DNA of 48,099 bases from Synechococcales cyanobacterium M55_K2018_004 (GTDB lineage Bacteria; Cyanobacteriota; Cyanobacteriia; Elainellales; Elainellaceae): contig DVEB01000283.1 in assembly GCA_015295905.1 (NCBI GenBank), positions 1-48,099 on the forward strand, written 5' to 3'. The notes beneath the pieces were generated by a model. It saw nothing but the letters and a program-made list of their open reading frames with translations. It did no database searches and had not been told where the DNA came from. The position numbers were made by a program, and so were the translations under genes. Shown here piece after piece: positions 1 to 18,000 of this stretch. Positions within the stretch are counted from its first letter, which is position 1. Every line of letters starts with the position of its first letter.

Positions 1-3000
1 TCTTCCAGGGTGAGGTCTTCACGCGGCGGGGGTGAGGGTATGTCTAGCATCTCCTCAATCTCACTGAAGGGATCAAGGGGTTGGGCTGCGGTCGTCGTGG
101 GTAGCCCCATAACGGCCTGGTATTCCTCCAGCGTCAGATCTTCGCGGGGGGGGGCAGGCAGGTCACCGTGGCTAGCCATGGGAGGAGTCACTGGTAGATC
201 ACCAGTAAAGGTGGGTGGTGAGGGCGGTAGCACTTCCGTAGCAGCGGGGGCATCGCCCAGCAGAGCAGCCAGAAAGTCAGGCGACAGGGCGGCTTCAACC
301 CCGGCAGAGACGGGTGGATCAGAGAAGCGAGCAGCCTCAGGAGTCGGTTCGGTTGGAGCAACTGGCTGAGCTGACGTGGATTGGTCTACCGCAGGGGAAT
401 GGGGTGCGATCGCTGAGGGAGCCTCCAGCAGCCGGATCAGATCTTCATCCTGGGTGGATGACGACACCGGGAAGGGCGGAATTCCAGGTGTTGCTGGGGG
501 GGCAGGCACTGCTTCTGGAGCCACCTCCGGCGGTAGAAACGCGGCCCAGTCGTTCAGGACAGTTGCCTCGTCTGTCTGCACTGGCTCAGTCTCGTTTTGG
601 CGCATTCCCGCTGGGCCGGTGGGTGGTGTGCTGAAGTCGTCACCAGCAGAGCCTAGAGGTGGCGTTGTCTCAGTGGAAACATCTTCAACCGCTCTGCTAC
701 TCCACGGTTGCTCTGCGAACATGCCGCTTTCAAACCGGGTCAGATCGTATTCCAGTTGTGCCAGCGTATCTTTCCCCATCTCCACGGCAATCTTTGACTC
801 CGCTGGTAGGGTATCACTCGCCAGCAGGTCTTCGTCTGGCGAAGCGGGTTCAAACAAGTCTTCAGCGGTGATGGCATCGGCAGACTCTAAGGTCAGTTCG
901 CTTAGTTCTGTCGGGTTTAACTCCGCTGGATTGCTGCTGACTAGGGCAGACAGGTCGTGCAAAGAGGAAATCACGTCCTCTGGTGGCACGTCTGGCTGGG
1001 GAGGAGTAGCTGTCAGGTCTTCTAGGCGTGTTTGATTGGGGATTGCCGCTTCCCCGGAGAACAGCGTCTCGAATTCTAGTCCATCTACAGGAGCAGATTC
1101 GGTCGGTGTAGGCGGTTCCTCAAAGAAGAACTGATCTAGGGTCAGGTCTGCTGCTGTGGCAGCAGCGGCAGCGATCGCCTCTTTCCCACCCTCTTCCTCG
1201 GCCAACTCAGGGCTGTGCTGTGGCTCTGCCGCTGCGCTGGTAGAACCATCGGCCAAGCCACCAAAAAGCTGCTCCTCCAGTGTCTGTCCTTCCAGACCTG
1301 CCGTGTCAATCGGCAAAGCCTCGACGAGAGCGGCCTCATCGGCAGGAGATGGGGTAACAGCAGCAGGTGGCTCCACGACAATGGCCTCTTCCCCAAACAA
1401 ACTCTCGTAGAACTGATCCAGTTCCCCAAATTGTTCTGCTGGGGCAGCGCCGGGTTGGGTTTCTGATTCTGTCAAGGCAGCAGTAGTCGGAACTTCAGCC
1501 GACACTTCCTCTACGCCCAACTGGTGGAGCAGGTCCACTGCCGCATCTAGGTCTACGGGGTCAGGATTGGTAGACAGTGTGTTCCCGCTTAGCTCCTCTT
1601 GCAGTTCAGTTAATTCTTCCCATTCCTCGTCGATTTGCAAAAACGTAAGATCTTCCTCATCGAGTTGGAACTGGGTGATTTCTTCTGGTTCGTCAGTTTG
1701 CAGGAAGGTAAGGTCATCATCGTCTAGGAAGTTTTGGGGTGGGGCGGCTTCCTCTAAGTCCAGTTCCGCTAGTTCCAGGTTCAACAGATCCAAGTCATTC
1801 ATATCAGCCTGGGTCGGCAGAATAACTGGTAAATCAGCAGGATTGGGATCTGGTTGTAATGTTCGCCCGGGCTGGCGATCGCGCAACGCATCGCTGCGGA
1901 GTTCGTCCAATAACTGGTCAATCTGACTGTCCAACTGACTGTCCAACTGACTATCTAACTGACTGTCCGACTGATTGTCCGAACGATGGACATTGCCCTC
2001 GACTGCGGGCGAGTCTGGTGGGGGCGAAGCGAGGCGAGTCAGGGGGGGATTAGCACTGGGGGCGATCGCCTGCGGCGGTGAAGCTTCTGGCAGCGGGGGA
2101 TGTGCAGCTTCCCAATTGGTGGTCTCAACGGAGGATTGCAGATACGAGGAAGCCTCTCGCCCCAACTGTTGGGCCAGCCGATTAATCAACGCTGAGAACA
2201 TCGCCTCACCCTGTTGCCCCAGGGCGTGCATCTGGTTCAGGCCATTGTTGAGCGATTCTTGGTAACTCTGGATGTTGCTTTGGAGAGACTCGAAGAAGAC
2301 CTTAAGAGTCGAGTCGAGCTTGAGCGCAAGCTGGTCAGACTGCACCTGCAACGCTTGCATCTGGGCCAGTCGTTCGGCAGGGCTGAGGGGGGGCAAAGAA
2401 GCTTCCGACAACCACCGAGAAGAACTAGCGGGCAAGGGTCCCACAGACGCATCGGTGCTGGCCAGCAACGCAGTGTTAGCAGCAATCTGGGCAACCTGGG
2501 CAGACAGGGTTTCCTGCATTCGAGCCATCAACGCCTGCAAAAACTCGTTGACTTGCTGTTGGTTGACTGACCCCAGAGAACCAGCGACTTGCCGTCGCTG
2601 CGCCTCCAGTTGTTGAATGTCCTGCAACAAGGTTTCCCGTTGTTGCCGCATGATTTCCAGTTCTTGACGCATTGGCTGCATCAAGTGGGTGCGCAGGTAG
2701 TTCATCTCCTGCAAAACCGCCTGGAGTACCTGCTGGGCCGATTCCCCAGCGTAGGGCAAACCGTTGCCAGCAGAAGGCCCATATCCTCCTTGTAGGGCTG
2801 GAGCTACATATTCAGAAGTCTGACTGCTACTCGGGGCTGCCATCTGTTGCTGGAGGGCAACCAAATAGTCGCGGGTCTGTTCTAGAATGCGCCGCTGTTG
2901 ATCCACTTCGCCTGACATCACCCAGGGCAAGCGAGGGCTGGCCTTGCCTAGAACACTATTGATTTCTTCTATCAGCGCTTGCAGTTGGGTGGGGTGGAGA

Positions 3001-3005
3001 GTCAC
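1..3005 (-). CDS. Large coiled-coil protein with acidic repetitive tail (partial, GTG start)
   Basis: I do not recognise a named family. The minus strand is open for 1001 codons from a GTG at 3005 to the window edge, with no in-frame stop; the C-terminus lies outside. An upstream in-frame stop (3050-3048) and an AGGA about 8 nt before the GTG support this start. Residues 1-60 (MTLHPTQLQALIEEINS...) and roughly 88-175 and 208-290 are Gln/Leu/Glu-rich and look like coiled coil. About residue 300 onward is Pro/Asp/Glu-rich and probably disordered, with a DSQL tandem near 346-362 and repeated acidic motifs of the type DLTF-L-Q or EDLTLEE. No signal peptide or membrane helix is visible. It reads away from a SpoIID gene and lies 2.8 kb beyond the end of the eCIS minus arm, so a link to the injection system is possible but unproven. 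Plus-strand open frames here are shadows of its biased composition. Confidence 0.85.
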   Translation of the reverse strand, partial: MTLHPTQLQALIEEINSVLGKASPRLPWVMSGEVDQQRRILEQTRDYLVALQQQMAAPSSSQTSEYVAPALQGGYGPSAGNGLPYAGESAQQVLQAVLQEMNYLRTHLMQPMRQELEIMRQQRETLLQDIQQLEAQRRQVAGSLGSVNQQQVNEFLQALMARMQETLSAQVAQIAANTALLASTDASVGPLPASSSRWLSEASLPPLSPAERLAQMQALQVQSDQLALKLDSTLKVFFESLQSNIQSYQESLNNGLNQMHALGQQGEAMFSALINRLAQQLGREASSYLQSSVETTNWEAAHPPLPEASPPQAIAPSANPPLTRLASPPPDSPAVEGNVHRSDNQSDSQLDSQLDSQLDSQIDQLLDELRSDALRDRQPGRTLQPDPNPADLPVILPTQADMNDLDLLNLELAELDLEEAAPPQNFLDDDDLTFLQTDEPEEITQFQLDEEDLTFLQIDEEWEELTELQEELSGNTLSTNPDPVDLDAAVDLLHQLGVEEVSAEVPTTAALTESETQPGAAPAEQFGELDQFYESLFGEEAIVVEPPAAVTPSPADEAALVEALPIDTAGLEGQTLEEQLFGGLADGSTSAAAEPQHSPELAEEEGGKEAIAAAAATAADLTLDQFFFEEPPTPTESAPVDGLEFETLFSGEAAIPNQTRLEDLTATPPQPDVPPEDVISSLHDLSALVSSNPAELNPTELSELTLESADAITAEDLFEPASPDEDLLASDTLPAESKIAVEMGKDTLAQLEYDLTRFESGMFAEQPWSSRAVEDVSTETTPPLGSAGDDFSTPPTGPAGMRQNETEPVQTDEATVLNDWAAFLPPEVAPEAVPAPPATPGIPPFPVSSSTQDEDLIRLLEAPSAIAPHSPAVDQSTSAQPVAPTEPTPEAARFSDPPVSAGVEAALSPDFLAALLGDAPAATEVLPPSPPTFTGDLPVTPPMASHGDLPAPPREDLTLEEYQAVMGLPTTTAAQPLDPFSEIEEMLDIPSPPPREDLTLE
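1920..1982 (-). repeat. 12-bp tandem repeat encoding DSQL units
   Basis: About five copies of a 12-bp unit (plus strand ctgtccaactga and variants) lie inside the acidic protein gene. The length keeps frame and encodes DSQL or DSQI tetrapeptides. It marks the junction between the coiled-coil/Pro-rich part and the acidic tail. Copy number could vary by slippage without a frameshift. Confidence 0.8.
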
Positions 3006-3276
3006 GGTCGCAGTCCTGACGAAAACAGTGCAGAGGAGGAAAATAGGCTAGCAGAGATGCACGTCTGCTTGTATTGCCTAAATCTTAGTTTAGTTTTTCC
3101 CAAAGATAGGGCATTTTCTTACGCTGTTCTGATAGCAATTCTTATAATTGTTGCATTTGATTTTTGATTGTTGTATTTAGGGGCGACCCTACCTACCAAC
3201 AACGACCGCCGCTCTATACGCCGCCCGCTGTGCTGAGAATGGTGCTAGGAAATTCAGCGATTCTCATGTTGGTCTT

Positions 3277-3364
3277 CTAGTGTGGTTTTAGTCCGCCTGT
3301 GACGGGCTAAAACCACACTAGAGATTGGAGGGTTGCCCCCTGCAAGTGTGACCCTCCAATCTCT
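3277..3364. repeat. Two adjacent hairpins, palindromic family A
   Basis: The first hairpin (3277-3321) pairs CTAGTGTGGTTTTAG with its complement around a short loop, with one mismatch in 18. The second (3320-3333 with 3351-3364) has perfect 14-bp arms, AGAGATTGGAGGGT. The lead-in ATTCTCATGTTGGTCTTCT at 3260 resembles ATTCTCACGTTGGACTTCT near 28410, so these belong to one dispersed family. Confidence 0.75.
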
Positions 3365-3374
3365 AGCTTTTACG

Positions 3375-3486
3375 CTGATACGGAATCCGGCTGTAAAGTG
3401 GCAGTTTGTTGTGGGGTAAAACGTGTGCGTAGTGCACGTTTTACCCCACAACAAATCGACTCAATAACCGACGGAGTCGGTATGAG
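3375..3486. repeat. Palindromic repeat family B, complete copy
   Basis: The core is a perfect 21-bp inverted repeat (3405-3425 with 3435-3455) around a 9-nt loop, with arm core TTGTGGGGTAAAACG. It is flanked by two different ends: GATACGGAATCCGG on the left and CCGACGGAGTCGGTATGAG on the right. One or both ends recur at 29979, 32672, 39350 and 48035, so this copy shows the full element. Confidence 0.85.
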
Positions 3487-3608
3487 AAGGGCTGAAGGGA
3501 CTAGCCTAGGTTGTCGATCGCTCGGAAAGGCGGCATAATGCTGGGCAGATTGTTTTGCTTTAGCTCCCGCTTCACACTTCTTAAGGACGAAAGTTAAGGA
3601 CAAGAGCC

Positions 3609-5492
3609 GTGAAATACTTAAGCGCCAATGGGAAGGTGAGCAGTTCCCCCTTCACCCCTTCTAGACCATCTGCCCTCGGGTCTGCTGCTGTCTCAAAGCT
3701 GGCAATTGCCGCACTTTCAGTCGGTGGCGTTACATTATGTAATGTTCTACCTACTCCAGCGCAAGTGGTCACCCCAAATCCCGTCATTAAGGTTGGGGTG
3801 GTGCAGCGGTTCGGCTCGGAACCCACCCAAACCCTAACGTTAACTCCTGCAACGGGCGATCGCCTCACCCTGCGGTTTAAGACCAACGATCAACCCCAGA
3901 CACTAACAACCACGGCCCCCGTTCAGATCGATATTGTTCAGCAACCCCTACCGGAGCCACAGGTTGTGGAGCGGGTGGTATTGAGTACTCACCGCAGCTT
4001 TGAGAGTGCGGAAGACAGCGCCAACCAGTGGCGATCGCGCGGGATTGAAGTGGAAATTGCTCAGCCCCGCCAGTGGCAGGTGTGGGCCAAGCGCGACACC
4101 TACTCTACCCCCCTGTTGCGTCGCTTGCTGATGAAGAATCTAGAATCCCAGGGAGCACGCACTGCGTTTATTGACAGTCAGACCCAGCAGGAAATTCCCC
4201 GGGCTTCCTTTGTGGTCAATGGGTTTCGTTACACCCGCGATGAGGTGGATATTCTCAGTGGCAATAACCGGGTGACGGTGCTGCGGGGAGACTCGGCAGA
4301 TCCGAGGGTCGCCGAAAAACCTGAAAGTCGCCGCATCTACGCCGGGACGCTGCGCCTGCAACCCAATGCCTACGGCACCTATACCCTGGTCAATACGGTG
4401 CCGATCGAGACCTATCTGCGCGGTGTGGTGCCCCACGAAATTGGGCTACAGGCACCAGACACCACAATTCAGGCGCAGGCCATCCTGGCACGGACCTACG
4501 CCCTGCGTAATTTGCGCCGGTTTGCCATCGATAACTACCAGTTGTGTGCCGATACCCAGTGTCAGGTCTACTGGGGGTTGGGCGGTGCCGACGAAAAGAG
4601 CGATCGCGCCATCTATGCCACCCGTGGACTGGTGCTGACCTACCGCAACGAACTGGTGGATGCCCTCTATTCTTCCACCACAGGCGGTATCACAGCCCCC
4701 TTTTCGGATGTGTGGAATGGCCCCGACCGCCCCTACCTGCAAGCCGTGATCGATTCGGTGCAGAACGCTTGGGATTTGGTCAACCGTCCGTTGTCGGTAG
4801 AGGCAAACCTGCGGGCCTTCATTAACCTGCGGCAGGGCTTTAATGAGGTGGGATGGGACACCTTCCGCTGGCGGATTGAAAGCTCTGTGGCCGAAGTGAC
4901 CGCAGACCTGCGCCGATTTTTGCAGAGTAAGCAGCACCCCTTGGCAAACTTTACTCAGGTGCAGGGGTTGCGCGTGACGCAGCGATCGCCCGCAGGTCGT
5001 GTTCAAAAGGTTGAAGTGCAGACCGATCGGGGCGTTGTCACTCTGGAAAAGGACGAAATTCTACGGGCACTTTCGGCTCCCAATAGCTTGTTGTTCTACG
5101 TTGACCCCCTCTTTAAAACGGCAGAGGCTGCGGGGGACAGTCCAGACGGAATCGCTCAACCTGAAACAGTGGCGATCGCCCCTGACATGACTGGTTCTGA
5201 GGGCAGTTCTGACGCAGCGCCAGACCTCAAGTCAGGCATGACTCTCGCCGCCGATGGCGGCAGCCCTGCTGCGGCCCCCTTACGCGGATTTGTCTTCACG
5301 GGTGGAGGGCTAGGTCATGCCGTGGGAATGAGCCAAACGGGGGCATACAACCTGGGACGGCTCAACTGGAGTGCCAGCCGCATCCTGAGCTTCTACTATC
5401 CTGGCACCCGCGTGGAAATGCTGAACCCCTCGATTGTGTTTTGGCGCGACCCGGCAGAATCGATCCAAGTGTCGCAGGTGGAAGCTCGCTAG
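3609..5492 (+). CDS. Exported SpoIID/LytB-domain protein
   Basis: A 627-aa protein of the SpoIID/LytB family, whose studied members cut or help cut peptidoglycan (SpoIID is a lytic transglycosylase on denuded glycan). The N-terminus has a hydrophobic stretch (about 25-48, KLAIAALSVGGVTLCNVL) followed by APAQ-like sites, so export is likely. The SpoIID domain spans about residue 245 (TLRLQPNAYGTYTLVNTV, then PIETYLRGVVPHEIG) to the end. It includes AQAILARTYAL and the late motif GGGLGHAVGMSQTGA (about 566), then FYYPGTRVE. Length is usual for cyanobacterial members, which have a long N-terminal extension. The ATG at 3609 precedes the signal-like segment directly. It stands alone, convergent with the eCIS fibre gene. 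A role in letting the particle through the wall is speculation from position only. Confidence 0.92.
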   Translation: MKYLSANGKVSSSPFTPSRPSALGSAAVSKLAIAALSVGGVTLCNVLPTPAQVVTPNPVIKVGVVQRFGSEPTQTLTLTPATGDRLTLRFKTNDQPQTLTTTAPVQIDIVQQPLPEPQVVERVVLSTHRSFESAEDSANQWRSRGIEVEIAQPRQWQVWAKRDTYSTPLLRRLLMKNLESQGARTAFIDSQTQQEIPRASFVVNGFRYTRDEVDILSGNNRVTVLRGDSADPRVAEKPESRRIYAGTLRLQPNAYGTYTLVNTVPIETYLRGVVPHEIGLQAPDTTIQAQAILARTYALRNLRRFAIDNYQLCADTQCQVYWGLGGADEKSDRAIYATRGLVLTYRNELVDALYSSTTGGITAPFSDVWNGPDRPYLQAVIDSVQNAWDLVNRPLSVEANLRAFINLRQGFNEVGWDTFRWRIESSVAEVTADLRRFLQSKQHPLANFTQVQGLRVTQRSPAGRVQKVEVQTDRGVVTLEKDEILRALSAPNSLLFYVDPLFKTAEAAGDSPDGIAQPETVAIAPDMTGSEGSSDAAPDLKSGMTLAADGGSPAAAPLRGFVFTGGGLGHAVGMSQTGAYNLGRLNWSASRILSFYYPGTRVEMLNPSIVFWRDPAESIQVSQVEAR

Positions 5493-5513
5493 TGGAAGCT
5501 TGCTAACGGAAGA

Positions 5514-5615
5514 TATGGCGCTACACGCTTGTGATGTCAAGCGCATTTGGTGGGAAAACCCGTGCTGCGGGGGTTTCCACAAAAACTTGTTACACCATGA
5601 GCGCGTAGCGCCATA
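5514..5615. repeat. Palindromic element (family E) after the SpoIID gene
   Basis: Outer arms TATGGCGCTACACGCTTG (5514) and GAGCGCGTAGCGCCATA (ending 5615) pair with about two mismatches. An imperfect inner hairpin around 5550-5580 pairs GGGAAAACCC with GGGTTTCC. It lies 22 bp after the SpoIID stop and could help end transcription, though no U-tract follows. Confidence 0.65.
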
Positions 5616-5637
5616 AATAACGTCAGTTCTGGTTAAA

Positions 5638-5720
5638 AGAGTTTTGGGGCACCGCGCCCGGCGCGGTGCCCCAAAACTCTTGCTTTTCCGTGCGCATCGC
5701 GCACGGAAAAGCAAGAGTTT
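5638..5720. terminator. Twin perfect hairpins (family C) between convergent genes
   Basis: Hairpin one has perfect 20-bp arms (5638-5657, 5661-5680; AGAGTTTTGGGGCACCGCGC) with a 3-nt loop. Hairpin two has perfect 22-bp arms (5674-5695, 5699-5720) with a 3-nt loop. They share the bases at 5674-5680, so both cannot form fully at once. The site lies between the 3' ends of the SpoIID gene and the fibre gene and may end transcription in both directions. Related copies at 36369 and 47911 show that it is a dispersed repeat. Confidence 0.7.
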
Positions 5721-5754
5721 CAGCTTATCCCGAATGCACGTTCAATAGGAACTA

Positions 5755-8700
5755 TTAGCGAGCATTGATGTGCTCAAACAGAGTGGCGATCGCCGCCTGT
5801 TGTTGTTTCACAATCCGATTGAGCAAGATGATTGCTTCCCGCTGGTCTTTCACCGTGCGAGTCAGGACAGCCACCACATCCAGGATGCGGATTGCCTGCC
5901 CATCGGTGGAGGTGACTAGGGTGGGGCTGTCTTCGGCAATGAACCCGGCGTGGAGAGCCGTGTCCTTCGTCGTGGTGTAGTTAAACGTGACGGGGTTGAG
6001 CGATCGCAGCAAGTCGGTCGCTGCTTGACTGGAGAGGGCAACAATATTTTGCTTTTGCGTGCGGCTTGAAACCTGTTCGATCTCTGTGCCAGCTACCTTC
6101 TGGGCAAACAGCTTACCTGTGACTAGCCCATCCCCACTCACCACCAGTTTTGTTGCAGCAGCAGAGACTCCCGTCGGCAGGGTGACATTGAGCGGAGCCT
6201 GATCAGCCAGAGACCCGATCGCCACCTGTCCATCATTCCTCACGTAGAGCAGGCTCTTGCGGTTTTGATTGGTGATATTCAGGGCGCTATCTGTAGCATT
6301 GTTGGTGACTCCCCGCACTTCTAATTTCGCCAGCAATGGCTGACTGGTATCGGCGGAGGTATTGAATACCCCAATGCCCGTGTGCCCCTCCACCAACAGT
6401 CCATTGATCAGAGAATCGTTGCGGTTGAAGAAGTTGGCCCCTACCACTAGCTCACCCAAAACATTGACCCTGCTGTTACTTTTGCTGGCATCCTGGGGAG
6501 GAGCAATCGTCATCAGACGGGTATCCCCTTCTCGGATTGAAAGTCTGCGACCTGGCAAATCGATGATAAAAGGCGTAGGGTTGGCCGTAGTGGAATCTGT
6601 CAGCAAGGTCAGTTTTTCAGCCACTCCTGCCACTCGGCGTAAGGAAATCTGACTACTCCCAGTGATACTTGCCCCACCATTACCGACGGTCAGCCCATTG
6701 TTGCTGACGGTCAACCCGCCACTATTGACCGTCACCCCGCCATTGGCGACCGTCAGCCCTTCACTCTGGATGGTGACCCGTCTGGCGAAGGTGATGGCTT
6801 GGTTGAAGTGGGGTGGGTTGGTGGAAATGCGAAAGGCAGCCGTGGGTCTGCCAAAAGTGATGCCATCTCGAATGGTGATTTGATTAAAGTGAGTATCCGC
6901 TGCGTCTTGATCGATCTGGAAATTCCCAATCTTCAAGACGCCCCTCTTAATTTCAACATTGCCTTCCGTCAAAATGACGTTACCTTTGGCTATAGCAATG
7001 CCATCCGGATTCAGGGCAATAGTTTCAACTGCACCATTCATAACACTGAGTTTTCCACTGATCCGAACATCTTTGTCGAAGCTGTAGCCTGCGTTGGAGG
7101 TGAAATTGACAACACTATTATCTTGCGGCTGGATCTGGAAAAAGCCTGTATTAGTGGCGGTGCCTGAAGTCAAACGATACCCTGCGTTGGCGGTCAGCGT
7201 CACTGCGGCACTGTCCTGCGGTTGGATGCGGAAAAACCCTGTATTGTCGGTTGTACCTGACCGAAAGGTGTAGCCCGCATTGGCGGTCAAATTGACACCC
7301 CCACTGTCCTGCGGTTGGATGCGGAAAAAGCCGCTATTGGCAACGGTGCCTGATGTAAAGTTGTAACCTGCATTGGCCGTAAAGTTCACGGCATCGCTGT
7401 CTTGAGGTCGAATGCGCAGAAAACCTGTATTGGCGGCAGTGCCTGATGTAAAGTGATAGCCTGCGTTAGCGGTGAAATGAACAGCACCGCTGTCCTGCGG
7501 TTGGATGCGGAGAAAGCCTGTATTGGTGGCCGTGCCTGTTACGACAGTTAGGCTACGATCGAAACGATGACCAGCATTGGAGGTGAACTGCACTGGATTG
7601 CCGTCCTGCGGCTGAATTTGCAGAAACCCTCTACCCGTGCCCACGCCAGTAGCAACTCTGAGGACCCCTTTAACATCCAAATTGGCCTGGGGGGTGTCAA
7701 AGCCAATCCCGACTTTGCCGTCGGTCTGCACCTGTAACAGGCTGGTCCCCACCCCACTGCCCGCTTTGACGTGCAACACACTGGCGGCAGGCGTCGCTTC
7801 AGCACGGCACACCTCTAGTTTTGCTCCAGGTGCAGCGACCCCCATCCCCACGTTGCCCAAGTTGTTCACCACAAATTGCGGTTGGGTGGTTTGGGGGTCT
7901 TCTGTGTCGATGCGCACAATCGGATGCGGTTGGGCCGGACGGTAGGTGAAACTGGCGGCAATGATAGGATTGGCCAGGGTGGTGGTGAGGTTGAGCAGCG
8001 TATCAGTGGCGATCGCCTCCACCACCAGTTCTACCGACTTGCCAGTGCCATCCACAGTAGTCAGCCGATCGCCCGGAGAGAGCTGTTGTGCAAAGCGCGT
8101 CTCTACGCCAGTGAGCGTTTTTGACCCCGCCTCGCCAGATAGTGTCCCGCGTCCCTCCAGAACAGTCGCCCCCCGAATGTGCAGGCGGGCGGCTGGCTTG
8201 CTCACCCCAATGCCAACCGTCCCTGTAAAAATGCTCTCTCGCCCATCCAAGCAGTTGATCAGCGAAGGGAAGATACGGCGGCAGTCCCCCTCGTTACCCG
8301 GATCTGAAAACTGGGGGCTGGCCGCAGTGCCCGTGAGGACTGTCAGTGCCAGCCGACTATAGCCGTGTTGAATGCCCAGAGGGAGTTGACGCTGGGGGTT
8401 CCCCTCAACGTTCTTGATCCACTCAATGGCACCATTGGCGCGGGAAGGAATCAGCCAGTAATCTCCCGTTGCATAGCGCATGTTGGGACTAGTCTCAAAC
8501 TTAACCTGAATGTTGCGTTCTAGTTCAATCCAGCCATCGGGGTCAGACGACTTGAGCGGCAGCCCCTGAGAGTCGCTGGTCCAGTCCCAGGCCCGCAGTT
8601 TGGGGTGCTTGGCGGGAGCAAACTCGTCGAGGGCGATCGCCTCTCCAACACTCGATGCATTGTAGATCAGCTTGCCCCCGGGGCGGACATCAGTGAGGCG

Positions 8701-9972: not shown

Positions 9973-12900
9973 TCAGGTGACATAGATCAGGTCGGGGGTG
10001 ATGCCGAAGCGGAGATATTCGTTGAGGCTGGCCTTGAGGTTGTCTTCTCGTTGGGGAAACTTGAGGGAATTGAAGACTCCCATTTCTGAGCCGTTTTCGG
10101 CTCCAGTGCGGACTGTGGTAACGGTGGCGCTGCTGAGTTGGGCATAGCCCGGTTGCCCATAGCGCTCGTCGGTGAAGCGGGGCTGCATCTGGTTGAGCAG
10201 GAGCAGCATATCATCCACTCGGTTGAGGCCGGTGTTGAGCGTAGCCCAGGTCTTGCCGCTGTTCTGACTGATGAACAAGCTACCGATGCGGGTGCCCGCA
10301 AGCAGGGAAGCCTTGCCGTTGACAGGACTGCTTAGCACCAGACAGGTGATATCCGTTTGGGTGAGGCCACTGCCTGCAACCTGCCAGGAGCAGCCATTGC
10401 TGCTGGAACGGAAGATACTGCCACCAGTGCTGCCCACATACAGGGTGGTGCGTTGGTAGGGAGTGTTGGGGGGGAGGTCGGGGTCGAAGGGTTGATCGAT
10501 GCGGAGTTCGTCAGCAGTGGAAATCGTCATAATGCGGCGGGTCTGTCCGGCGGCGGTGAGGCTGTCTCCCGGAGCAAATTCCCGTTGGAAGTCGGTACTG
10601 TTCCCTCTGACGCTGGTGTAGTCACTGGCGATCGCCCCTTTCCCTGGCACTGTTTCCCCCACGATTGCTGTGGTGTTGGGGTTCGTCAACCCGGCACGGG
10701 CAGGTTCCCAGCGCAGTCCCCCGTCTGTCGAACGAAACACTCCACCCCCCAGCGTGGCCGCAAACAGGTGTCTAGTGGTTGCACTCAAGCATAGTCCAGT
10801 GATGTAGGGATGGGTCAGCCCCGTCTGGCAGATGTTGACATCGCTAGGGTCGCCCCCTCTCCAGGTGTTGCCATTGTCGCTAGAGCGGAACACACCCCCA
10901 CCCCACGTGCCAACGAAGCAGTCCCCGCTGTGGGGATCGGTAGCGATCGCCCGCACATCGCGATTGGTCAGTCCCTCGTTCATGGCCTGCCAGGTCTGTC
11001 CTCCGTTGCTGGAACGGAACACCCCATTCCCAGCAGTGCCCATCCACAAAACAGAGGTCTGGAAGGGAGTAGGGGTTGTGATGTCGGGGGAGAAAGGTTC
11101 GGCAACGGTGAGACTGCCATTGTCGGGCGCAATTGCAGTGATGCGGCGGGTCTGTCCGGCAATTGTCAGACATTCACCCACTGCGAGTTCCACCGCAAAG
11201 AGGGTGCCTTGTCCGGTGACGGTGGTGCCCTTGGTGGTGGCCCTGCCTGTACCGAGGCGCTGTTGCAGGGCTAGGGCGGTGATGTCGGTGTTGCGGCGGT
11301 TCTCACTGTTGGGGATGCGCGGCTGTGGAACGGGTTCCCAACAGGTGCGCCGGATGCGGAAGGCGGTGGCGATCGCGTCTTGGTCAAAGGCGGGGCTGAC
11401 CTGAAGCAGGTTATCGGCAGTGATGGCAATGACCGTGCGAGACTGACCGGCCAGCAGGATTTCGTCACCAGGGCTGAGTTGTTGCAAGAAGCGGGTGTTG
11501 CACCCCGTCAGCGTGGTGCGATCGCGGCTGGTGCTGAGGCGTCCCTGCCCTGGGGTCGTTTGGGTATTGTGCAGGAGCAGGAACTCCTTGCCGGCAAAGC
11601 TTTGGGCAAAGGGGGCGTTGACCTCTAGCTCAAGGCCAGAACGGACTTGCGTAATGGTGCGGCGATCGCCCTCCACAATCAGCGTTTTTCCCACGTCCGC
11701 TGGCGTAAATTTGGTGCCACAGCCCACGACAATCGCCCCGCCAGCCGTAGGTTGTGTCGTACTCACCTGCCCGCTGCCTTCCATGAGGAGATGGGTGACG
11801 CGGTAGAGGGCGCCGCCCGTGGTGCCTGCCAACACTGCCACGGTCTGAAACGCGCTCTGGGGGGGCAGGTCGGTCAAGGGCTGGTCGAGTTGCAGTTGAG
11901 TGTTAGAGGGAATGGCCTGAATAGTGCGCACTTGCCCCTGAACGGCGATCGCATCCCCCACCTGCAATTCCTCCAGAAACCGAGTGTGCGTGCCGTTGAT
12001 GGTGCCGATGGGATCACTAGCGGCAGCAGGCGAAATTGTCCCCATTCCCGGCAGGCTAAAGGCCAGTAACGCTGTGACAGCAGCATTGGGCAGGCCCGTC
12101 GGCACGGGCGCCCAAGTTTGACTAGCGGCAATCAACCGATGACTGCCCTGGCCCGCGGTGCCTACCCAGGTTTGCTGAGTGATGGGGTTGCTGGTGAGGC
12201 TAGTGATGGCGACGGGCAGGGTGCCGATCTGCTCGATCAGGGTGAGGTCGGGCTGGCAGCGGTAGCGAGGAGGCGTGCGCGATCCCTGTGGGACAAAACA
12301 GAAACGCAAACAGCCTATCTGCTGCCGTTGGGTGGTCACCTTGTCGGTAAATAAACTGTTGCTGGCTTCCAGGGTGCGGACGAGGCTGGCCCCGAGGATG
12401 GTGCTGGTGGTGATGTCTGCGTCGGTGCCAGGAGCAGTGAGAGCGGGGGGAATGGGCAAGGAGGATGAGGGGGGTAGGGGGGAGTCGAGGATGGAGTCTG
12501 TGAGGCTGAGGTGGGGGACAGAGTCGGCTAGGGCGATCGCGCCGCTAATGCTGCGAACGAGGGAGAGATGCAGGCGAGAGTTATCTGCCCCTAGGTCAAT
12601 CACGGGGGGATCGGGGTAGCAGCGGGGATCGAGAGGTGCATCATCTTCGTCTTCGTCAGTCGGTAAGGGGGGTGGCGGTGCCCAGCGGGACAGAAAGCGG
12701 TGCAGGCCCTCCAGCAGGGTGGAGCACTGCTCGCCCCAGATCTCAGTGATGCGTCCAAGCCGCACTTGGAGCGGCAGGTTGTTGGCCGTGAGGCCGACCC
12801 GTAACATCCGTTGCAACAACGTCAGGCTGTACATCAACAGGGCTAAGAAGGTAACGTCGTCGGGTTGGGCATTGGTGATGGGAAGTTCCGCCCGTTCAAC

Positions 12901-15003
12901 GCGCAGTGTGTGACCAGGGACGAGGGTGCTGTGGGCGATCGCCAATCGTTGCAAGTTGCCGGGACGCACCGTCAGATTGCCCTCCAGCAAAAGGCCCTCC
13001 AGCGTGAACTCGCCGCCATCCTCAGTGGCAGGGGAGGCGGTGCCGCGCAGGGTGAGGTGGCCCAGCAGGTGGGGGCGATCGCCATCGGCAGCCACCAAGT
13101 ACAGGGGCTGCGCTGCCGGAATGCGGAGGAATAGATCGCCGCTGTAGGTCTGATTGCTCTGGAGTTCGATCAGGCCACCTGCTGCATCGCGAATCATACC
13201 CAGCGTGGGAGGCTGCTCTCCCTGAGCGGGTTGTAAAAAAAGGAAGAATACCTGGTTACGGTCAGCCGCTAGTGAGAGGGTGCCGCCACTAGGGAGGGCG
13301 ATCGCTTCCCCTCTGGCATTAACCGCCAGACCGGGGGAAACCGTTATTAACGCCTCTTGCTGGTTGACTGCCACCGCCAGACCGCTCAACACACCGGGCT
13401 GAAACCCTTGACGGACAGCGTTATCCAGCCGCTGCACCTGACCACTACTGTTGAGTTCTAAGCGTGCCAGCACAAAGTAGGGGCGATCGGGAGATGCCGT
13501 CGCAGGGAGCACGTCAATGTGGAGGCAGGTGGGGTCATGCTCGGCAGGACTCAGGATCAGCATCACTGCCTGACTCCGATAGCGGCCCAGGTAAATGCGG
13601 CGGGAATGCCCTAGCGTCAGCAGGTTGCCGCTGGCATCAATGCCGCTGCCAGCGGTGACTTGAGCCTCCAAATCACCACACTCTGCGAAGACGTTTAGCC
13701 CTGAAACAATGCCGGGATGGAAGGGGGGGAAAAGGCGCAATCGGGACGGGGAGGGCAGGGGGGAAGTGGCGTCTGTGGTGAAGCCGCTGCCTGCGAGGAT
13801 GGAGATTGAGCCATCGTTGCGACAGGCAACGTAACTAAGGGGAATGCTGATAAGGTCGTAGCAGGCTTGCCAGTGGCGGGCAAACTGATTCCACTCGCGG
13901 ATGGCCTGCGGCAGGGAGGGAGAGGCGTGGGGTGACCTGACTTTCCAGACGAGGTAGGTGCTGGCATCGAGGCTTTCTAGGACGGTGTTGCCAGTGCGAC
14001 TGTAGGGGCCACCGCCCACATCGTCGCTGAAGCCGTAGGAGTAGTTAACTGTTACGTTTTGAGGTGGGTCTTCCGTCAGCACAGCCATGCGCCCTCGCTG
14101 CAAGTCCAGCGCTACTTTGGCCTGAGAGTCGTGATCCTTGGTCTGCCAGTCTGCCAGGTCTGCTAGGTGAATTTCGGCCCGCTTCAAGGGGGTGCCATCA
14201 AAGTAAATTTGGACGGGACGATCGGCTTCCTCCACAGCCTCTGACTCCCACAGGGAGGGACTGAGTTCTCCAGGGATGTGGACTTCCTGCGCCAGTTCGG
14301 TGATATCCGTCTCGGTCTGGGGGTTGTTGAACAGGGGCGCGTCGTAGCCCAGTGGGTTGAGGGTGAAATAGCGTCCTTGGGGTGCGGCACTGAGGCCGGG
14401 GACGGCCCTGGGAGTGCCGCGTTCGATGGCATAGCTCTGCAGTCGCCACAGGTAAAGCGCCACGCCGTTGGGTGTGTAGGAGCCGCGTTGCTGGGGATTG
14501 CTGCGGATTTCGGGGGTAAAGGCCCCTGTGGTGCGGAAGGGAATGGGGATGGTGTTCTGCTGGGACTGTTGTCGCAGATTGACCGTGCTGCTCTGGGGAC
14601 GCAGGTGGCTGAGGTGTTGGGTGGTGGCGACAAAGGACTGGGCTTCGACGGCTCGCACCCCCCAGCCGGTAATGTCCCGGCCAATCTGTTCCAAAATGGC
14701 GGTGCTGCCCTTGCGCTGACGGTAGGCCAGGGTGTTGGCGACGTAGGTGCGGCGCTCCTGGCGATCGCGGTGAGCTGTCGCTTCGTTCAGGTCGCTCACT
14801 GCCAGCAGATCCCCGATGTAGGGCACTACCCAGCCATCGCAGGTCTCGATGAACCAGTTGTCGTATAGGTGCTCAATGTCGGCTTCCAGCAGTCGCAATT
14901 CCTGCTGGAGAATTTCCAGGAAGGCGCGTAACTGGCCGTCCTGCTCAGCATCGCGGATGCGGTAGATGGCGGGTAGCAGCTCGTACAGGGTGATCTGGCT
15001 CAT
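9973..15003 (-). CDS. eCIS gpI-type tail protein with inserted beta-propeller
   Basis: A 1676-aa protein. The ATG at 15003 (MSQITLYELLPAIYRIRDAE) overlaps the upstream stop as ATGA, so I prefer it to a longer frame. Residues 1-110 (ILQQELRLLEADIEHLYDNW, then WVVPYIGDLL) match phage P2 gpI-type tail proteins, which join wedge to fibres. A beta-rich middle ends in LEASNSLFTDKVTTQRQQIG, then RTPPRYRCQPDL at about 1000, and the last 80 residues (FTDERYGQPGYAQLS, GSEMGVF, LNEYLRFGI) are the ending I recall for eCIS homologues, where these two stretches lie close together. Here some 600 residues separate them. They hold five Asp-box repeats (FRSSNGGQTW type, about 1329, 1372, 1422, 1532, 1579) and five modules with T-x-F-x-x-E-L-x-x-G-D. 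The insertion suggests an extra binding platform on the baseplate. Confidence 0.88.
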   Translation of the reverse strand: MSQITLYELLPAIYRIRDAEQDGQLRAFLEILQQELRLLEADIEHLYDNWFIETCDGWVVPYIGDLLAVSDLNEATAHRDRQERRTYVANTLAYRQRKGSTAILEQIGRDITGWGVRAVEAQSFVATTQHLSHLRPQSSTVNLRQQSQQNTIPIPFRTTGAFTPEIRSNPQQRGSYTPNGVALYLWRLQSYAIERGTPRAVPGLSAAPQGRYFTLNPLGYDAPLFNNPQTETDITELAQEVHIPGELSPSLWESEAVEEADRPVQIYFDGTPLKRAEIHLADLADWQTKDHDSQAKVALDLQRGRMAVLTEDPPQNVTVNYSYGFSDDVGGGPYSRTGNTVLESLDASTYLVWKVRSPHASPSLPQAIREWNQFARHWQACYDLISIPLSYVACRNDGSISILAGSGFTTDATSPLPSPSRLRLFPPFHPGIVSGLNVFAECGDLEAQVTAGSGIDASGNLLTLGHSRRIYLGRYRSQAVMLILSPAEHDPTCLHIDVLPATASPDRPYFVLARLELNSSGQVQRLDNAVRQGFQPGVLSGLAVAVNQQEALITVSPGLAVNARGEAIALPSGGTLSLAADRNQVFFLFLQPAQGEQPPTLGMIRDAAGGLIELQSNQTYSGDLFLRIPAAQPLYLVAADGDRPHLLGHLTLRGTASPATEDGGEFTLEGLLLEGNLTVRPGNLQRLAIAHSTLVPGHTLRVERAELPITNAQPDDVTFLALLMYSLTLLQRMLRVGLTANNLPLQVRLGRITEIWGEQCSTLLEGLHRFLSRWAPPPPLPTDEDEDDAPLDPRCYPDPPVIDLGADNSRLHLSLVRSISGAIALADSVPHLSLTDSILDSPLPPSSSLPIPPALTAPGTDADITTSTILGASLVRTLEASNSLFTDKVTTQRQQIGCLRFCFVPQGSRTPPRYRCQPDLTLIEQIGTLPVAITSLTSNPITQQTWVGTAGQGSHRLIAASQTWAPVPTGLPNAAVTALLAFSLPGMGTISPAAASDPIGTINGTHTRFLEELQVGDAIAVQGQVRTIQAIPSNTQLQLDQPLTDLPPQSAFQTVAVLAGTTGGALYRVTHLLMEGSGQVSTTQPTAGGAIVVGCGTKFTPADVGKTLIVEGDRRTITQVRSGLELEVNAPFAQSFAGKEFLLLHNTQTTPGQGRLSTSRDRTTLTGCNTRFLQQLSPGDEILLAGQSRTVIAITADNLLQVSPAFDQDAIATAFRIRRTCWEPVPQPRIPNSENRRNTDITALALQQRLGTGRATTKGTTVTGQGTLFAVELAVGECLTIAGQTRRITAIAPDNGSLTVAEPFSPDITTPTPFQTSVLWMGTAGNGVFRSSNGGQTWQAMNEGLTNRDVRAIATDPHSGDCFVGTWGGGVFRSSDNGNTWRGGDPSDVNICQTGLTHPYITGLCLSATTRHLFAATLGGGVFRSTDGGLRWEPARAGLTNPNTTAIVGETVPGKGAIASDYTSVRGNSTDFQREFAPGDSLTAAGQTRRIMTISTADELRIDQPFDPDLPPNTPYQRTTLYVGSTGGSIFRSSSNGCSWQVAGSGLTQTDITCLVLSSPVNGKASLLAGTRIGSLFISQNSGKTWATLNTGLNRVDDMLLLLNQMQPRFTDERYGQPGYAQLSSATVTTVRTGAENGSEMGVFNSLKFPQREDNLKASLNEYLRFGITPDLIYVT

Positions 15004-18000
15004 AGACTGACCTCCGCCCTCAGGCCAATGCCTGCCGGGTTGATGAGAAGTAACTGGGCCGGCAGGATCTGTCGTTTGTCCACATCCCACCGGGCGGTCT
15101 GGGCCGGCAGCACAGCCTCTAGGCTGCGGGCGCGATCGCGGCGATACAGGGCATCTAAATCCACCGCCACCACGCCAGCCACTGCCTGCATCAGGGCGAT
15201 CGCCTCAGCAGAGGTGACCGCCTGCCCAAAGTGGCGCTGCTCAAAGGCAAACCTTGTGGTCAGCACTGCTTGGACCTGGGCCAGCACAGGTTCTGGCCGG
15301 TAGCGCGGGTCGATGAGCAAGCGTGCTTCCAGGTTAAACAGCAGGCGTTCGTAGGAATCCACTTGCACCTGCTGGATGGGGTCGTGAGCCTGGGCGATCG
15401 CCTGCACCAGGTTGGTGTATAGCACCGAGTCTGCTGGAACAACGCCCCCAGTGCTGGCCGCTACCGTAATGTGGACTGTCTGTACGCCGCCTGCTGACAC
15501 CACCGTTGCCCTGGCTTTACCGATGCCAGAGAAGGCGCGGGTAAAATCTTCGTAGTCTTGCAGGGAGACGATTCTGCCCAGCGTCCGCACCGTCAGGGGG
15601 GCACTGGTGCGAGCTTCGGTGATGCTTTCGGGGTCGGCAGCGCCACTGGTGGGGCGGGGATTGTTGACCTCTGAGATACCGAGGGGACGCACTCGCAACA
15701 GACTGAGGCGATCGCCCCCCATCAGTCCCGCCAGCCCCATGCCGCTGCGATAGGTGGCCCGCACGTTTTCCAGACCCGTCGGCAGGCGCATCCCGCTCAC
15801 CCCATCCCCGAAGATCACCGTCACTGTGCCATCCTGGGCACGACGGGTGATGTAGACCTGCTCGTCGGGGCCGTGGCCAAACAGTGAGTCCACCTCCTGC
15901 CACTGCACTTCGTTGACGCGCACCTCTAGCGTACTGATAGTGCCTTTGGGGGTGGTCGCTGCAACGTAGGTGAGGGGCTTTTTCCGCAGGACAAACGCCT
16001 GGTTGGGCTGGCTGCTGTCGCCGCTGCCCAGCACTTCGTCCGGCACCGTTTCGCCGTGGGTGGCCGGGACAATATTGGCGAAAATGCTCACCGTTGCTGG
16101 ATCGTAGCTGTTTTGCAAGGGAGCCTCTAGCGTCAGGATGGGCACCTGTTGGTCGATGGGAGGCAGCAGAATGGTGGCAGGTTCGCTGATGCTGGGGTCT
16201 TCAGCGATCGCCGCTTCTAGCACCACGTCCTGGGGTGTAGGGGTCAGCACCACCCCGACAAAACCGTCCCGGTCTTGCAAGCGCCAGCGTTGCTCCAGCG
16301 CTAGTTGGGGGTCGGGGTGACGAGGCAGGAGTGGCTGCGGGGGGGCCATCACAAACAGGCGATCGCCCGCCCGAATGGGAGCCGTCAGCAGCGCATCCTC
16401 CGAAATCAAAATGCCGATCCCCGCCGCCACCAAGCTACCCACAAATGGGATGATGGCGCGAAAATCGGTGTTCACCAGTCCTAGGGGGTTCAGTTGGGAG
16501 TCGAGGCTGGTGAGTCCCTGGTTAAAGGCGGCCCAGCGATCGCCCTGGTCAAGTGAGCGGAAGATCCCGGCTGTCTCGGTGCCAGCGTAAACTTGCAGGG
16601 TTCTGGGTTCCAAAACCAGACAGCGGATCGTCAGGTCGAGTGGTTGCACTGAGGCCGGTTTCCAGAGGGAACGGGTATTTTCAGCGTCGCGATCGGGCAA
16701 CAGGACGAAAATGCCACTCCCTGCAGTGCCCGCCAGCACACGCAGAATTTGGAACGGCGTGGGCGACTGTGCCAGTTCTAGGGGATTGGGAGCAGGGGGC
16801 AGAATCGCAGCATTCAACGCATCACTACCGTCATCCTGCACGTCAACGTCTTCTGGGACAGAACGGACTGGCTCAGGGCTGATTGCGTGATTGATCTGCA
16901 GAACGGTGTCGGAGACGATCGCCGTTACCTGACGAGTCACCCCTGCAATAATCAGGTCATCCCCAACGGCGAGTTCTTCTGTGAAGCGGGTGTTTTCCCC
17001 CAGAACCGTGGTGTTGGTGGCAATCACCGTGCCAGTCCCCGGACGGTGATAGGCAACCAGAGCCGTCACGTTGGGGTTGGTGAGTCCTCGGTTCAGGGGT
17101 TGCCAGCTCACCCCCCCATCGGTGGAACGGAACACCCCCCGATCGACGGTGCCCGCAAAGAGCGTCTGAGTCAGAACTGGCGATCGCACCCGGGCCAAGG
17201 TCTGCACATCTAGGGTTTCCAGCCCCGCCTGACTCCAGAGGTTGCCGCCATCGCGCGATCGCACAATCCCGCCGTTGCAGGTGGCGGCCAGCAGTTCTGT
17301 AGGCAGTGGCAGGAGCGATCGCACGTCCCGCGCCACTAAATTCCGGCTAGCATCCTGCCAGGTCTGACCATCCTCACTGCGGAAAATCCCATCAGGGGTA
17401 GCTGCAAACAGGTGTCCGGCCTGCACCGCCAAGGACTGAATGGAGCGGTTGGGGAGGCCATCGTTGATCGGTTCCCACACCTCCAAATTGGCCTGCTGCT
17501 TCAAGCGAAACACGCCCCCTCCAGCAGTCCCCGCAATCAACTGAGAACGATATACCGCGAGACAGGTGACCCCGGTGTGGGTGAGTCCGGCAGTGATATC
17601 CCTTGTCCCGCCACTGCTGGTGATGGGACTGGGGAAACGGTGCCACCGGTTTGGGTTCTGGGCATCATTCGGGTCATTTTGCAGACGCATGACGCCACCC
17701 ACATGCTGTACCACTGCCCGGATGCGCTGACCACTGACGATCACCTGTTGCTTGGGCAGCAGTTCAGGCACGTATTCACTTAGAAAGACCTGGTTGCGGG
17801 TGATGGGGTCGAAGAAGATATTGGCCTGTTGCGGGGCGATCGCCAGTGGGTCGGGGGCCAGTTCCAGAGATTCACTCTGCACCAGGAGGACTGTTTCACG
17901 CCGACGATAGTTTTCTGGGACAATGGCTTCTCTAAGTTGCAAGCGAGACACTTCACCCGTCAGCCCAAAATCGTTCACCTGGACGTTCTCAATAGTGTTA

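Follow-up and report, generated by a model that had tools for sequence, protein, structure and literature searches.

What kind of gene leaves the window at its left edge? The window, the whole stretch of 48,099 nucleotides analysed from the Synechococcales cyanobacterium M55_K2018_004 (contig DVEB01000283.1), opens with a minus-strand open reading frame (ORF), here ORF1, that a sequence-only reading had picked out as an easily missed gene for a coiled-coil protein and had placed at the border of an extracellular contractile injection system (eCIS) cluster. Judged by its homologues, ORF1 is only the front half of a two-part cyanobacterial gene, whose second half, ORF2, carries a domain of predicted Hsp70-like fold; in many genomes a run of nine to eleven adenines marks the border. 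RNA polymerase probably slips at this run (we put the probability at roughly 0.76), which would yield both the coiled-coil scaffold alone and a scaffold-Hsp70 fusion. The sequence-only reading was thus right in its observation and partly right in its interpretation, the poly(A) tract and the Hsp70-like half lying outside the window.

ORF1 is a real gene. It runs for 1001 codons in a single stop-free frame, and because 500 shuffles of its bases gave no stop-free stretch longer than 314 codons, a chance origin is excluded (P ~6e-16 for 1001 free codons, assuming independent bases). The GC content of its three codon positions is 0.69/0.45/0.57; this pattern is shifted in the long plus-strand ORF lying over the gene, which is a shadow frame, as had been proposed. 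The GTG start is plausible, since homologue alignments begin at query residue 1-7 in most genomes. The window starts at the end of its contig (G000:C139), and the frame carries on through a 55-bp overlap onto contig C339 of the same genome, reaching a total of about 1239 amino acids, in which repeat copies were possibly collapsed at the contig break. In the AlphaFold2 (AF2) model of the ORF1 head, helices span residues 5-21, 31-56, 89-141, 148-184 and 209-291 (predicted local distance difference test, pLDDT, 76; predicted template modelling score, pTM, 0.32). The tail has a net charge of -130 over residues 293-1001, and residues 293-1239 hold ten DLTLE-like motifs, where 2000 shuffles gave 1.6 on average and never more than 8. 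A frame that leaves the window, and a coiled coil followed by an acidic tail with short repeats, are what the sequence-only reading had described, and the scaffold or adaptor role that it proposed is plausible. Searches of Pfam and NCBIfam with ORF1 gave no match above cut-off; a strong coiled-coil homologue (E<=1e-20) is present in 33 of 40 genomes. Elsewhere in the window's genome an EamA-type transporter is preceded by a paralogous coiled-coil domain, 35% identical over residues 90-285 of the ORF1 head, and weak second matches of this kind are present in most relatives.

Directly 3' of ORF1 in the window's genome, an 841-amino-acid ORF follows in a different frame. Nine adenines stand just before the end of ORF1, and ORF2 is open across them in the -1 frame; its 640-amino-acid domain has no Pfam match. 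Among the neighbourhoods of 18 relatives, one contig (L036) ends inside ORF1; the remaining 17 all have the Hsp70-like domain directly behind the coiled coil, the two forming one ORF in five of them. Over 139 distinct cyanobacterial loci, the arrangement occupies one ORF in 77 and two ORFs in 43, with the front off-contig in 19. Of eight pairs compared, seven give a ratio of nonsynonymous to synonymous substitution rates (dN/dS) of 0.08-0.33 for ORF2, and in L044/L059 synonymous sites are saturated; the ratios indicate purifying selection and led us to reject a pseudogene. One genome, G002 (L134), is scaffold-only, with neither the tract nor the Hsp70-like half; its sole match to the domain is weak, like those that other genomes give at DnaK level. 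Separately, an in-frame TAG was reported within the Hsp70-like match of G019.

The ORF2 domain is predicted to have the Hsp70-type nucleotide-binding fold, with a helical extension at its C terminus. The AF2 model obtained with alignment A2 (40 rows, first row L054) has a pLDDT of 86.5 and a pTM of 0.90, and its top matches are DnaK/Hsp70 nucleotide-binding domains in Foldseek (E 1.9e-14) and DnaK/Hsp70 in VIA (Z 21.9, 3.7 A over 369 residues). Fold and an invariant DxGxxG motif (40/40 sequences) are what the domain shares with the nucleotide-binding domain of Hsp70/DnaK (ASKHA fold); it differs in its identity of 12-18% in the listed structural matches, in being carried on a coiled-coil acidic scaffold and in falling below the Pfam HSP70 cut-off (L073, for instance, scores 18.2 bits against 20.6 for PF00012). 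Because a PDB sequence search with the Hsp70-like profile returned nothing better than E ~0.1 (SSE1, DnaK, PilM), the assignment rests on the predicted fold. Membership of the PilM family is a marginal alternative at the sequence level: PF11104 and TIGR01175 give marginal matches, but both are below cut-off and Hsp70s are listed first in the fold searches. Many of the listed VIA matches end near model residue 515 and some reach 570-650; within this model of the whole domain, the C-terminal ~135 residues of ORF2 show no consistent match to the Hsp70 substrate-binding domain. The phosphate-2 loop reads AGA where Hsp70 presumably has DLGGGT, so it appears altered, and the module may hydrolyse weakly or not at all. 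The structural matches also include Ssz1 and Hsp110, to which the domain is related by fold only. These non-canonical Hsp70s work as regulators, not foldases, and, unlike the ORF1-ORF2 gene with its proposed slippage, are not known to involve slippage or fusion to a coiled-coil scaffold.

The border tract was counted in two sets of loci. The first comprised 104 distinct loci (18 neighbourhoods, 80 named loci and further genomes; 8 duplicates were removed beforehand); a single scan gave 222 loci, of which the named ones are the best 80, and prevalence was therefore drawn from other, separate genome samples. In 43 of the 104, exactly one run of at least nine A lies in the linker between coiled coil and Hsp70-like domain, compared with nine other A/T runs of this length in 1.71 Mb; the tract is present in 22/25 split genes, 16/62 single ORFs and 5/17 loci with ORF1 off the contig. 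The genomes of the second set were drawn and fetched after the tract had been predicted and gave 38 regions, of which 3 had already been seen. The tract occurs in 21 of the 35 new loci, with one A/T run of at least nine elsewhere: all 16 clear splits (coiled-coil match >=100 bits) have A9-A11, two splits whose coiled-coil match is weak lack it (hence 16/18 splits), and single ORFs and loci without ORF1 account for 5/15 and 0/2. Both sets together place the tract in 64/139 loci (38/43 splits, 21/77 single ORFs) against only 10 other such runs in ~2 Mb, with lengths of A9 in 14, A10 in 46, A11 in 4 and none longer. In the 5.0 Mb of the window's genome, A9 occurs at six places on either strand, the border tract being one of them. 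On a domain tree of 100 rows, where many long branches meet so that deep branching is unsure and counts of changes are minima, tract presence changes at least five times; the tract occurs in many branches and is missing from part of the Nostocales and from one large single-ORF clade comprising Nodosilinea, Leptolyngbya and relatives. Assembly or sequencing error was rejected, as the single-contig genomes G008 and G029 and many others show the tract with different phases.

The phase of the downstream frame is far less fixed. Across the 60 tract-bearing loci in which ORF1 is seen, the domain lies in phase 0 in 21, in H+1 (reached via -1) in 29, the window's genome among them, and in H+2 (via +1) in 10. 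On the domain tree the phase changes at least nine times among 39 tract loci versus three times among 49 loci without the tract, all three being single odd rows. Two sister species (L045 and L060; domain 89% identical, dN/dS 0.08) both have A10 and differ in phase, and their sequences differ on both sides of the run. In frame H+1 a stop usually follows the tract within 0-11 nucleotides, in splits and many fused genes alike. From these comparisons, tract length is constrained and genomic phase is free. Because the phase varies while the tract is kept, transcriptional slippage is indicated over directional ribosomal frameshifting, and the GeneTack study likewise interpreted an unconserved shift direction as slippage (PMC3711429). 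Most split genes have an A run of nine or more at the frame junction, and the runs fall at or just above the nine nucleotides given as usual for slippage-selected runs (PMC1088944). Slippage as the cause of the narrow length range, the free phase and the conservation of the tract in fused genes is strongly suggested.

Three loci and one family show what happens when either start codon or tract is missing. In L045, L046 and L048 no ATG, GTG or TTG lies between tract and Hsp70-like domain, and since no start codon stands upstream, the domain would be made whole only through the tract. In family f23, L175 retains A9; AAG codons replace the run in L184, L161 and L162, whose ORF2 has an ATG overlapping the ORF1 stop. 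Loci that have lost the run thus either carry ORF2 fused in frame to ORF1 or give it a coupled start.

By the slippage that we propose, RNA polymerase would slip on the 9-11 A's and produce transcripts varying in A number. Those in one register would meet a stop a few codons past the tract and encode the scaffold only; those in another would be read through into the Hsp70-like domain and encode the fusion. As all registers would arise by slippage, selection would hold the length of the tract and not its genomic phase. The coiled-coil head may build an assembly and the acidic DLTLE motifs of the tail may bind partners, in which case the slippage rate would set the fraction of subunits bearing an Hsp70-like module, itself possibly weakly or non-hydrolysing.

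Several observations weigh against slippage as the general rule. Because 56 of the 77 single-ORF genes have no tract, two protein forms are not needed everywhere, and several tract-bearing single-ORF genes of Nostocales have no near out-of-frame stop. Five of the 43 splits have no tract: the break in L116 falls on an N next to a duplicated stretch; L072 and L094, both metagenome-assembled genomes, are broken at other points of the linker; and start-stop overlaps are present in L162 and L184. L063, among the +1 cases, is of unsure phase, its ORF1 being broken twice. Finally, a Shine-Dalgarno-like motif precedes the tract at 11 of 43 loci compared with 3 of 43 control positions, which would fit, in some genomes, programmed -1 ribosomal frameshifting on an A-rich slippery sequence (A_AAA_AAR type) as the source of the fusion. 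This explanation also agrees with the -1 position of ORF2 at 29 of the 60 loci and with the listing of A_AAA_AAG/A as -1 sites by GeneTack (PMC3711429), but we consider it unlikely: it should apply always in the -1 direction, whereas +1 is needed at 10/60 loci and no shift at 21/60; runs of 9-11 exceed what a heptamer requires; and the downstream RNA is no more folded than the control (mean z -0.40 vs -0.28, n=43). Around these 43 tracts, a search for frameshift stimulators found none beyond the mild Shine-Dalgarno-like excess.

Somewhat less probable still is slippage of DNA replication, by which the tract would act as a phase-variation switch, with the Hsp70-like half on in some cells and off in others. 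A runs are mutable and the phase differs even in close relatives, as such a switch would have it, but it predicts a wider spread of lengths than A9-A11 with A10 in 46/64. Moreover, L045 and L060 have runs of equal length despite their differing flanks, and both are off in DNA terms, yet their ORF2 has the low dN/dS given above. We find it quite improbable that translational coupling or reinitiation yields two separate proteins, the tract being incidental. The start-stop overlaps of f23 speak for coupling, as do an ATGA beside the A9 in L042, L168 and L178, which thus have both elements, and start codons within the window's own ORF2; however, three genomes offer no start codon between tract and domain, the tract is both specific and conserved, and the fused form, found at 77/139 loci, is the rule. 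That the gene encodes an eCIS-associated adaptor, as the sequence-only reading held, is hardly credible, for although in the window it lies two genes away from the eCIS cluster, 14 of 33 scaffold genomes lack the tube family PF19266 and close linkage is seen only in the window's genome.

Transcriptional slippage thus remains our preferred explanation, and precedents exist. In Thermus thermophilus dnaX, slippage at A9 yields tau and gamma (PMC1088944, PMC5009743). As in dnaX, the A9-A11 run lies within a cellular gene, out-of-frame stops follow soon after, and long and short products sharing a front would be expected; unlike dnaX, the protein is unrelated, relatives differ in genomic phase (0, -1 or +1), some lineages have swapped the tract for a plain fusion or a start-stop overlap, and slippage is here proposed from comparison of sequences. 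In Citrobacter rodentium tssM1 and the slippage genes of the Shigella type III secretion system, an A run likewise breaks a long gene and slippage yields the full-length protein, with a yield of ~20% at the A11 run of tssM1 (PMC4256274); the ORF1-ORF2 arrangement differs in spanning many cyanobacterial families. Insertion sequences of Nostoc PCC 7120 carry A8-A10 (PMC1088944). HmpF/DnaK1 of Nostoc (PMC9239167) and FcmB (PMC12645912) were rejected as the same system on their published descriptions and gene context, not on sequence comparison. FcmB, described as a fifth bacterial actin-like family, likewise belongs to the actin superfamily and has a partner in filamentous cyanobacteria, and by that description differs in being ParM-like and encoded by a separate gene (PMC12645912). 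We found no published report of the ORF1-ORF2 gene or its tract in the literature searched, whose scope left out subscription journals, so that an earlier mention is possible.

Among sampled genomes, 14 of 21 from the class and none of 38 from other classes of the phylum have the Hsp70-like domain (E<=1e-20); in a class sample searched at E<=1e-40, 45 of 96 have it. Many named loci come from genera that we take to be filamentous, and a restriction to filamentous cyanobacteria is a lead only. Upstream and divergent from the scaffold gene at the 104 loci stand a Crp/Fnr-family regulator (at least 56), then a DUF2232 membrane protein (at least 53) and CobT (at least 47), counts that are lower bounds because many contigs end early; the Crp/Fnr-family protein is a candidate regulator of the scaffold gene.

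Whether the scaffold accompanies eCIS was checked in 40 genomes, taking PF19266 as the mark of eCIS and a coiled-coil match at E<=1e-20 as that of the scaffold. PF19266 occurs in 20 genomes and the scaffold in 33 (both 19, scaffold only 14, eCIS only 1, neither 6; Fisher p=0.09, uncorrected for kinship); homologues are thus common in genomes lacking eCIS, which removes the proposed link. Scaffold and eCIS on the same contig are 248 kb apart in G030 and 3.8 Mb apart in G002, and elsewhere lie on different contigs. The description of ORF1 as the gene next to SpoIID at the eCIS border holds for the window in so far as ORF1 lies two genes from the eCIS cluster there, but a SpoIID neighbour is shared by only four distinct close relatives (L037, L038, L040, L043). 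The interval from ORF1 to the SpoIID gene holds three strong inverted repeats that by eye look like hairpins. Adjoining the eCIS baseplate genes are two giant neighbouring genes of 1705 and 1823 amino acids with Sortilin/BNR-type beta-propeller matches, which overlap each other by 91 bp in different frames.

Table 1 Coordinates of the ORF1-ORF2 gene and of other features mentioned in the text
Feature	Sequence	Position	Strand	Remarks
ORF1 (scaffold half), first 1001 codons	Window	3..3005	(-)	GTG start at 3003-3005; stop-free frame
N-terminal helical coiled-coil domain, 292 amino acids	Window	2130..3005	(-)	Conserved part of ORF1; AF2 model; alignment A3, 40 sequences
Acidic, Pro-rich, low-Lys/Arg tail with repeated DLTLE-like motifs	Window	3..2129	(-)	Residues 293-1001
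Contig end, 55-bp overlap with G000:C339	Window	1..55	(-)	Remainder of gene on L033 (C339)
ORF1 end	L033 (C339), outside window	54-770		TAG stop at 768-770
A9 tract	L033 (C339), outside window	754-762		
ORF2 frame	L033 (C339), outside window	open to 3256		
Hsp70-like domain	L033 (C339), outside window	~1328-3253		
Shadow ORF	Window	376-1035	(+)	
Three inverted repeats	Window	3279-3452		
Two giant beta-propeller genes	Window	9973-20471	(-)	
Coiled-coil paralogue	G000:C186 (L034)	5092-7008	(+)	
Hsp70-like match with in-frame TAG	G019:C49	14995-16962		
Crp/Fnr-family regulator	L125 and equivalents	3316-4071	(-)	

Gene callers likely cut the gene where the frames differ, and its second half may easily end up annotated as a hypothetical protein of its own. 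We consider the odds evenly balanced that a phase-indifferent slippage element, in a chromosomal, non-mobile gene of many cyanobacterial families, determines in what ratio an undescribed coiled-coil/Hsp70-like cell-organising protein occurs in two forms; lineages would exit from this system only via in-frame fusion or start-stop overlap. Because slippage depends on polymerase and nucleotide supply, this ratio could follow cell state. The gene raises the questions of whether the RNA polymerase of cyanobacteria slips at A10 often enough to be of use and why an Hsp70-like protein should have a scaffold-only form, and it offers built-in controls among species, which carry the second half in frame, at -1, at +1, fused without a tract or coupled by start-stop overlap. 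Few cellular genes of bacteria are known to depend on slippage, and most of these are mobile-element or secretion genes; here one appears to be conserved across cyanobacteria.

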